Below, one piece after another: positions 42,534 through 45,453 of a DNA stretch of 64,000 nucleotides. Source of the stretch: Chryseobacterium binzhouense (lineage in GTDB: Bacteria; Bacteroidota; Bacteroidia; Flavobacteriales; Weeksellaceae); the NCBI RefSeq assembly GCF_007474545.1, contig NZ_VKOG01000009.1, forward strand, positions 1 through 64,000, written 5' to 3'. Position 1 is the first letter of the stretch. Each line of letters starts with the position of its first letter. The notes under the pieces were generated by a model. The model saw nothing but the letters and a program-made list of their open reading frames with translations, did not search any database and had not been told where the DNA came from. A program made the translations under genes and the position numbers.

Positions 42534-43727
42534 TTATACAGAAAGCTCGTCAATAATTTCCATAATAGAATTGACAGAATTTTGCAGACTAAAAGGCATT
42601 TGATAATCTTTAAGATTGTTTTGATAGGTGTTAAAATGATCTGGTGTTGTCAATGCCTTTTTCATTCCCTCATAAATTCCTTCTTCGGAATTCTCAACAA
42701 TTAAGCCTAATTTGCCGTTTTCCAGCATTTCATTTACTCCGGAAACTTCTGTAGCAATAATGTTTTTCTTAAGCGTAATCGCTTCAAACAAAACCGTAGG
42801 AAAGCCTTCGTATCTTGAACTGAGAATATAAAACTCTGCTGCTTTAAAATAGGGATAAGGATTGTCTGTAAAACCAAGCATTTCAGCAGTATTATCTACG
42901 CCTAATTCTGCTTTTAATTTTCGGATGTTTTCAAAATCATAACCGTCGCCAATAATTTGAACCCGATGTTGGTAGCCTTCATCCAAAAGTTTTTTATGAA
43001 CTTTCAGCAATCTGTCAAAACCTTTCTGTGGGAAAACCGTTCCTACACTTACGAGAGTTGGTTGTCGGTTGTTGGTTGTTGGTTGTTGGTTGTCATTGTG
43101 AGGAACGAAGAAATCTGTTGCTTTTTCATTGGACTTTTTTAGAATTTCTTCCGTATCCAAAGGGTTGTAAATTCTGACGATTTTGTTTTTCTCCTTTTCA
43201 TTTCGGGCTAATTTTTCAAAATCGTTTTGAATTTTCTCTGAAATCACCATTATTTTATCAAACCCAAAGAATTTTCTAAACTCATCATCCGTATAATGGT
43301 GAAATTCTGTTTTAGTGAGATCATTATGAATCCAGACCATTTTTTTAGATGAAGAAATGGGGGAGTTTAGAATCTCGTCTCTCATTCCGTGAATGGCGGC
43401 AAATTCTATGTCGTATTTTTTGTTTTTGAGAATAACAGAATATAGAATTTTTGGAAATTTTTTCAGTAAACCTTGGTAAAAAACTCTAAATGCTTTCTTT
43501 GGAAGATCCTGCAAACGGTTAGTAGTAATCATCTCTCCTTTATTCAGATAGATAATGTTGATCCATTTCGGGATTTCACTCAAATACTTTCCTGAGTATA
43601 AGTTTAAAAGCAAATCTATTTCATATTTATCTTCAGGTAGATTTTTAAGAAAGGTCGCCAAAACTTTTTCTGCACCACCGTGGCGCAGAGAACCTATTCT
43701 GATGAGGATTTTCTTTTTGGGGCGCAT
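42534..43727 (-). CDS. Glycosyltransferase, GT4-like, with repeat-derived insertion
   Basis: A 397-residue GT-B enzyme that adds a sugar to a glycan acceptor on the cytoplasmic side. The N-terminal lobe begins RIGSLRHGGAEKVLATFL; the C-terminal lobe has LVSVGTVFPQKGFDRLL near residue 230 and SSRYEGFPTVLFEAITL near 310, the nucleotide-sugar EX7E-type region. Between the lobes (about residues 210-230) is an Asn/Gln/Pro-rich insertion, TDFFVPHNDNQQP..., encoded by five 7-bp repeats and an adjoining repeat-like element at 43060-43116. The paralogue at 44296 lacks it. The donor and acceptor are unknown. First of a minus-strand run of four polysaccharide genes. Confidence 0.88.
   Translation of the reverse strand: MRPKKKILIRIGSLRHGGAEKVLATFLKNLPEDKYEIDLLLNLYSGKYLSEIPKWINIIYLNKGEMITTNRLQDLPKKAFRVFYQGLLKKFPKILYSVILKNKKYDIEFAAIHGMRDEILNSPISSSKKMVWIHNDLTKTEFHHYTDDEFRKFFGFDKIMVISEKIQNDFEKLARNEKEKNKIVRIYNPLDTEEILKKSNEKATDFFVPHNDNQQPTTNNRQPTLVSVGTVFPQKGFDRLLKVHKKLLDEGYQHRVQIIGDGYDFENIRKLKAELGVDNTAEMLGFTDNPYPYFKAAEFYILSSRYEGFPTVLFEAITLKKNIIATEVSGVNEMLENGKLGLIVENSEEGIYEGMKKALTTPDHFNTYQNNLKDYQMPFSLQNSVNSIMEIIDELSV
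43060..43094 (-). repeat. Five tandem 7-bp repeats inside a glycosyltransferase gene
   Basis: Plus strand reads GGTTGTC once, GGTTGTT three times, then GGTTGTC. The unit is not a multiple of three, so gain or loss of one unit would shift the reading frame. On the coding strand it gives the Asn/Gln/Pro/Thr-rich linker. Confidence 0.85.
43092..43116. repeat. Dispersed intergenic-type repeat within a coding sequence
   Basis: The stretch GTCATTGTGAGGAACGAAG plus AAATCT resembles, from memory, the short repeat (GTCATTGCGAGGAACGAAG and variants) scattered between genes in many flavobacterial genomes. Only this copy was seen in the window. Together with the heptamers it makes a 57-base in-frame insertion. 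Confidence 0.5.
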
Positions 43728-44295: not shown

Positions 44296-45453
44296 TTATT
44301 TTTCTGCTAATTTAATAATGATATTCTCAACGGCATCAAAAATTTTCTGATTGTCAAATTCTGTTTCAATATTTGTCAAATTTTCTTTAATCTTATTAAC
44401 ATATTCAGGTTCTATCATAAACTTCTTCGTGGCATCATACATTTCTTCTATGCTATAATTGATAAGATATCCTGTTTTATCATGGGTAATCATCTCAGGA
44501 ATACCTCCTACATTTGTTGAAATGATGGGCTTTTGTAAGATCAAAGAATCAGCAATAATCAATGGCCAACTTTCAGATTCTGAAGGCAGAATAAAAAAGT
44601 CTGCATTTTTGACGTAGGGATATGGATTAAGTAATGAACCGATTAGCTCAAAAGTTTTTGTAACACCTAGCTCCAGAGCCTGTTTTTTAAGGTTTGTCAT
44701 TTCCTCACCGTCACCAATAATGATAATATGATGATCGAAACCGTCATTTATCAATCTGGAATGAGCCTGCATAAGTTTATGAAAACCTTTTCTGCTGTGG
44801 AGCCTGCCCACGGAAACAAAAATGATTTTTTCGGGAAGCTGAAGAGCACTTTCGCTGGCTTTATTTTTTATTTCTTCAATCGGAATGGCATTTCTGATAA
44901 CCTGATTTTCAGGAATGTGTAAATTTGGGTATGTTTCTATCAAGATATCCTTGGTTTGCTGAGATCCGAAAATGAAATAATCAAACTGAGGAATCTGTTT
45001 TAAAATTTCCGGCACCAGCGGCTGTAATTTGGGTAGCGTAATGTCTGAATGAAACCAACCAATTTTTTTTGAATTTTTGTTTGATGAATTTAAAACTGAA
45101 GAAAAAGCTGCGTAAGTAGGAGCTATTTCTACATCAAAATGGTCATTTAAAATTTTAGTAGAAATTTTAGGGTTTCTGCTGGCTTTATTGAGCCTCAGTT
45201 TTCTTTTTGCAAGCTGCAATTTATGAATAAGAGGGTTTGCAGAAAAATCTTCTTTTCCTCCGGCGATAAAAACTTTTCTTACATGAGACGGAATTTCATT
45301 ACGGAGCTCTCCCTGATTGATATTAAGACATAAAGTAATCTCAAATTTTTCCTTGCTGAGATGATTCAGCATGCTGAGAACAACCTTTTCTACACCTCCC
45401 ATCTCCATAGAACGGTGTCTGAACAGTACTTTTATTTTTTTATTTTCTTTCAT
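44296..45453 (-). CDS. Glycosyltransferase, GT4-like
   Basis: A 385-residue GT-B enzyme, paralogous to the one at 42534. Motifs: RHRSMEMGGVEKVVLSML at the N-terminus, FVSVGRLHSRKGFHKLM near residue 215, and LPSESESWPLIIADSLIL near 300, in the donor-binding region. The N-lobe/C-lobe linker is short (LQLPEKIIFVSVG), without the insertion seen at 42534. It probably transfers a sugar during surface-glycan assembly; specificity unknown. It lies 8 bases from the GT2 gene upstream. Confidence 0.88.
   Translation of the reverse strand: MKENKKIKVLFRHRSMEMGGVEKVVLSMLNHLSKEKFEITLCLNINQGELRNEIPSHVRKVFIAGGKEDFSANPLIHKLQLAKRKLRLNKASRNPKISTKILNDHFDVEIAPTYAAFSSVLNSSNKNSKKIGWFHSDITLPKLQPLVPEILKQIPQFDYFIFGSQQTKDILIETYPNLHIPENQVIRNAIPIEEIKNKASESALQLPEKIIFVSVGRLHSRKGFHKLMQAHSRLINDGFDHHIIIIGDGEEMTNLKKQALELGVTKTFELIGSLLNPYPYVKNADFFILPSESESWPLIIADSLILQKPIISTNVGGIPEMITHDKTGYLINYSIEEMYDATKKFMIEPEYVNKIKENLTNIETEFDNQKIFDAVENIIIKLAEK

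Follow-up and report, generated by a model that had tools for sequence, protein, structure and literature searches.

Short tandem heptamers dispersed in the genome, the STRR sequences, are found in cyanobacteria, and the palindromic elements of Rickettsia are a case of repeat DNA that proteins tolerate in frame. The heptamer array described here, which lies in a glycosyltransferase gene of Chryseobacterium binzhouense, can be compared with both. Its unit occurs in cyanobacteria as well, and we liken it to the STRR sequences by description, not by sequence. Unlike the Rickettsia elements, it is non-palindromic and heptamer-built, and the GTCATTG element that adjoins it is single-copy in its own genome at up to 2 mismatches.

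Direct repeats of the heptamer TAACTGA have been described in Beggiatoaceae, Cyanobacteria and five Bacteroidetes (MacGregor, 2015; PMC4679880). As presented in the accessible parts of that report, they resemble our repeats in being tandem heptamers that are mostly intergenic, with some in frame within ORFs (a murG included), in their overlapping host groups and in having, likewise, no known mechanism; they differ in that one unit is used across lineages and in that the copies within ORFs are mostly at protein ends. The heptanucleotide elements of Geobacter metallireducens, according to the accessible text of PMC2700814, number 49 copies of four repeats each, within and between genes, but have another unit, belong to one genome and are predicted to be regulatory. 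The hmw1A arrays of Haemophilus influenzae are likewise built of 7-bp units in tandem, and changes in unit number could affect expression, although in the accessible parts of PMC2651432 and PMC8262952 these are promoter arrays of at least 13 units with proven variation, compared with about four uninterrupted units here. We found no description of slot-wise replacement of heptamer units in the accessible parts of PMC4679880 and PMC2700814 or in other open-licence PMC literature, and no recognised description, in the open-licence PMC literature, of these heptamers in the bacterial family to which the window belongs. Several groups of bacteria are known to have heptamer repeats, for which no origin has been generally accepted. 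With slots whose flanks can be aligned, one can count and date replacements and pair them with possible donors, which makes the question of origin testable; the slots also provide natural cases in which repeat DNA has become a loop of an important enzyme, and one coding strand is strongly favoured.

A heptamer array in a glycosyltransferase linker

The window, a stretch of 64,000 nucleotides at the start of contig NZ_VKOG01000009.1, contains the features listed in Table 1. The array reads GGTTGTC, three GGTTGTT and a final GGTTGTC, and its longest uninterrupted period-7 tract (43067–43093) comprises about 3.9 units. TRF assigned period 7 to 43057–43093 (5.3 copies, 93% matches), which had the top score among the 8 rows returned for the window. 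The end of the array is overlapped by GTCATTGTGAGGAACGAAGAAATCTG, so that, as the first-pass annotation had described, five GGTTGTY units run into a second repeat, in frame, in the linker that joins the two lobes of a protein whose 397-codon frame is open. Reading of its ORF confirmed that the paralogous glycosyltransferase nearby has no such stretch. A structure model of the repeat-bearing protein had a mean pLDDT of 76.3, with 18 aligned sequences.

Table 1. Positions in the window of the repeats and of the genes discussed in the text.
Feature	Position	Strand	Basis or remark
GT4-type glycosyltransferase gene, 397 aa, host of the repeat	42534..43727	-	ORF; Pfam Glycos_transf_1, 5.3e-28
Five GGTTGTY heptamers (coding strand CCAACAA)	43060..43094	+	Sequence read, TRF, chance test
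26-base piece of second repeat (GTCATTGYGAGGAACGAAG type)	43092..43117	+	Shares three bases with the last heptamer
Codons of residues 205-220 (DFFVPHNDNQQPTTNN), repeat-coded	43068..43115	-	Longest of the model's four segments with pLDDT <50
Paralogous glycosyltransferase without the repeat (comparison)	44296..45453	-	ORF, Pfam

A 14-mer of the array, allowing up to 2 mismatches, matched the window six times against 0.64 expected (0 of 100 shuffles reached six), and the 19-mer GTCATTGTGAGGAACGAAG, allowing up to 3 mismatches, matched once, exactly, against 0.03 expected. Shuffled sequence accounts for neither match. The fold test found no palindrome in the glycosyltransferase linker (z +1.6) and no second arm or terminal inverted repeats in this copy. 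Elsewhere in the window, a loose scan picked up an imperfect period-7 stretch at 2317–2395, with a possible minus-strand start codon at its edge.

The glycosyltransferase gene has matches at E ≤ 0.001 in all 174 genus genomes searched, each representing one species. Matches of at least 69% identity are present in just 68 of these genomes, and we therefore call the gene widespread, not core; among the matches listed, most other genus genomes show 55–59% identity, and G046 has a distant match alone (2.0e-9). The matched span exceeds 1,152 nt, again among the matches listed, only in the window's own genome and in the relatives G030 and G107. In the 30 best-scoring orthologues the linker is ordinarily 66–72 nt, compared with 102 nt in the window, 93 nt in G030 and 120 nt in G107. 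The gene was initially thought to have received a clean insertion of 57 bases; its net gain over the ordinary orthologues is 30 nt (102 versus 72 nt), which implies that about 27 nt of the ancestral linker were replaced.

To score linker periodicity we used the self-match of the DNA at lags of 2–14, with codon shuffles and other windows of the same gene as controls. Lag 7 was the best in all three long linkers (self-match of 0.51, 0.56 and 0.49); the match at this lag was equalled by none of 2,000 codon shuffles and by none of the other windows of the same gene (0/296, 0/299 and 0/278). Of the 27 ordinary linkers, none had period 7 at P 0.01, and one (L015) had P 0.045. The comparison with orthologues thus yielded 27 ordinary linkers out of 30, with clear 7-nt periodicity limited to the three long ones. 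By eye, the units are CCAACAA in the window, a degenerate AATCAGA-like unit in G030, and GGAAGCC with CATCCAG in G107.

Both lobes of the glycosyltransferase are under purifying selection, dN/dS against G030 being 0.045 before the linker and 0.076 after it, in a comparison near saturation (dS 1.17 and 1.05).

Dispersal of the two repeat types

Relatives carry both types of repeat, in intergenic positions as well as in frame within coding sequences. In the window's own genome, GGTTGTT arrays (19-mer, up to 1 mismatch) are present at four places: the glycosyltransferase gene, murG and leuS, both in frame, and the atpA–atpG spacer (murG and leuS were named from their translations and Pfam, atpA and atpG by eye). 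The copy in the glycosyltransferase gene consists of tandem 7-nt units with several, albeit few, dispersed copies in the genome. The heptamer array type was found in 26 of the 174 genus genomes and GTCATTGYGAGGAACGAAG in 75. In its own genome, a search for the GTCATTG element at up to 2 mismatches gave a single copy. A relative also has the GTCATTG type in frame, read as SGHCEERSDEAIS, within a ketosynthase-like protein (L096, 1005–2165, minus strand; also L097; type assigned by eye). In five genus genomes (loci L046, L054, L058, L063 and L064) a TrpG-like ORF, named by eye, has a CCAACAA array at its N-terminus.

Perfect-array searches of 400 kb of the window's own genome (G000) and of 400 kb of G020, a sample with 7,500 N for which the codon-shuffle control was not used, revealed no excess of period 7. 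A looser scan (threshold 0.55) found 6 period-7 places in G000 versus 5 each at periods 8, 10 and 11, and 12 in G020 versus 2, 6 and 8, respectively; in the 400-kb samples, then, no clear period-7 excess was found for the window's own genome. Rfam returned one match for seven loci, with an E-value of 0.32 and far under its gathering score.

A scan of genome contigs with a 27-base array, which may leave out records of the window's genome, found 105 stretches. Judged by their titles, 56 of the 80 stretches listed are from Bacteroidota (32) or Cyanobacteria (24). Of the 105 arrays, 58 were not spanned by any ORF of 200 aa or more. ORFs of that length with at least 25 codons on each side of the array read it as PTTNNQQ in 20 cases and as LLVVGCW in five; Pfam recognises 15 of the former and none of the latter, so that CCAACAA arrays in Pfam-recognised proteins are read as polar PTTNNQQ in 15 of 15. 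Ten of these 15 arrays are clearly internal and five lie closer to the N-terminus, and there the actual start codon may be downstream of the array. The 15 proteins include MnmE (whose array segment is, by eye, the same as in G031), a valyl-type tRNA synthetase, LeuRS, PurD and an integrase. The CCAACAA unit has no stops in any of the six frames and encodes PTTNNQQ in each coding-strand frame, which makes it a tolerable linker.

Heptamer slots in murG and leuS

The genes murG and leuS are normally essential. The heptamer loop of murG belongs to the C-terminal domain and was compared in the best 30 loci from 60 genomes searched (L204–L233; L334–L360 also represent this loop). The mean lag-7 match was 0.453, with 0.385 at lag 14 and 0.22–0.31 at other lags, and period 7 was supported at P ≤ 0.01 in 21 of the 30 loci and at P ≤ 0.05 in 25, the exceptions being one locus at 0.06 and four loci of one clade at 0.43–0.79. 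Units identified by eye include CCAACAA, CAGCAAC, CTCAAAT/CTCGGAT, CTTCCAG and GGAAGCY. In a murG search at family level (28 rows, five of them from the genus itself) P was ≤ 0.01 in 11.

In leuS, a long loop is present in four of 30 loci, two of which have CCAACAA; in G157 and G150 the LeuRS loop is long but, by eye, not built of heptamers. The repeat copies in murG and leuS of relatives partly fold (z -0.7 to -5.8).

Differences in units between species

Sister species can have entirely different units in the murG loop and in the atpA–atpG spacer, with the same period and conserved flanks. Quick trees for atp and murG, built without the repeats and having 15/27 and 8/27 starred inner branches, respectively, need three class changes for the atp spacer and eleven for the murG loop (30 loci); on the starred murG branches, each of the three larger classes requires no fewer than three changes. 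The sister species G163 and G020 have different spacer classes between adjoining blocks that are alike (46/47 and 60/60), with the caveat that one atpA stretch about 200 nt away is closer to another species. The murG inserts of G142 and G010 are wholly different, yet their flanks are identical at 58/60 and 56/60 positions and the rest of the gene at 655/693 and 315/342.

Array matches to CATCCAR, counted with overlaps, number 66 in G107, whose linker contains CATCCAG, three in G030 and one in the window's own genome. Genomes with CTTCCA in murG have more such arrays elsewhere (P 0.0013; 0.005 after subtraction of up to 2 for the slot), whereas no association was found between CTCRRAT in murG and arrays elsewhere in the genome (P 0.13; 0.62 after the subtraction); both tests ignore kinship. 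A long CATCCCG heptamer array is located near 301000 of contig C12 of G107.

Dispersed CTTCCA elements from four relatives (G025, G033, G002 and G044) could be aligned. All twelve (L371–L382) have inverted heptamer ends of the form GGAAGNN and interiors that vary, and several share a AATAACTTCC-like inner edge; eleven are 133–171 nt long and one is 87 nt. In their dispersal and inverted ends these elements may recall MITEs, from which their varying interiors would set them apart.

Origin of the glycosyltransferase array

The glycosyltransferase array is probably a dispersed heptamer repeat, a solo array beside an incomplete copy of another dispersed repeat, that sits in the flexible linker between the lobes of a working enzyme. 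We consider this the best reading because the same arrays occur in frame at other slots and because their units differ between species. It retains part of an early suggestion, that of a mobile palindromic-type element tolerated within a protein: the presence of the repeat in other genomes and in frame in other proteins, and the low pLDDT of the stretch, agree with a tolerated dispersed element, but the fold result does not agree with a palindromic one. We infer that heptamer families which differ by genome, and which are often hairpin-armed, would be copied into permissive slots or exchanged there; inside genes, survival would be limited to copies that preserve the frame, contain no stop codon and are read as polar residues. 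The glycosyltransferase array is probably a passenger that now acts as a linker, without a switching role. Several results speak against this reading: the 400-kb samples of the window's own genome have no clear period-7 excess, one of the two abundance tests (CTCRRAT) was negative, the G030 units are degenerate, the copy in the window has no second arm, and the atp spacers are conserved well beyond four-fold sites.

We put forward more tentatively, as a possibility, that an active process rewrites heptamer cassettes, often hairpin-armed, at fixed slots that include those in essential enzymes. The unit would be swapped for the current heptamer family of the genome, with period, frame and flanks kept, and the glycosyltransferase linker would be a newly filled slot.

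Alternatively, the heptamers could have arisen within the linker's own sequence and grown there in 7-nt steps by slippage, with no element moving. Each long glycosyltransferase linker does have a separate unit, the murG loop offers the graded variants CTCAAAT, CTCGAAT and CTCGGAT, and heptanucleotides have been proposed to favour polymerase slippage (Mrazek et al., 2007, as cited in the accessible part of MacGregor, 2015; PMC4679880). We nevertheless regard an origin by local slippage alone as unlikely, since one CCAACAA unit recurs across unrelated genes of a single genome, the murG and leuS inserts have in common (by eye) a composite of CAGTTGT-like and CCAACAA parts, wholly different murG inserts lie between flanks of 94–97% identity, and the unit of the G107 linker is abundant elsewhere in G107.

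The first-pass annotation had also raised a phase-variation switch, in which strand slippage that adds or removes a single 7-bp unit toggles the glycosyltransferase. A period of 7 does shift the frame, and the other frames read at the array reach a stop within 1 or 12 codons and truncate the protein. In addition, the accessible text of PMC2651432 gives a permissive threshold of three units, which the roughly 3.9 uninterrupted units here exceed, and describes an intragenic 14-unit heptanucleotide array with a frame shift in H. influenzae hmw1a. Known H. influenzae arrays, however, have 13–38 units (PMC2651432 and PMC8262952, accessible parts), the glycosyltransferase gene is widespread, both of its lobes are under purifying selection, and different units make up the long linkers of two relatives. 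As the same arrays are in frame in murG and leuS, and whole units differ between species, phase variation is not supported and we judge it very unlikely. For annotation, a 7-bp tract in a glycosyltransferase is by itself no evidence of phase variation.

It is highly improbable that the heptamer-coded peptide was itself advantageous in the glycosyltransferase. The exclusive reading of CCAACAA as PTTNNQQ in Pfam-recognised proteins could be taken to favour a selected linker, but the three long alleles each differ in linker sequence and length, 27 of 30 orthologues do without a long linker, and the codon-shuffle tests make the period a property of the DNA and not of amino-acid content. An assembly error has a negligible chance of being the cause, even though the assembly is a 16-contig draft, given that the frame is kept, the array is just 35 nt and the genomes of relatives hold comparable arrays. 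Explanations involving CRISPR, attC or retron-like sequences were set aside on general grounds.

Conservation of the atpA–atpG spacer

Period 7 was present in the atpA–atpG spacer at all 30 genus loci compared (L304–L333; P ≤ 0.002 with single-base shuffles), and the spacer has two main unit classes. The six spacers that were folded gave a hairpin, with z from -4.3 to -6.6. Within a class, conservation of the spacer was 0.954 compared with 0.663 at the four-fold sites of atpG (higher in 36/36 pairs), and in a second within-class comparison it was 0.868 compared with 0.649 (190/190 pairs). Conservation above that of four-fold sites points to either constraint or recent homogenisation, and suggests that some heptamer copies are functional and more than passengers.
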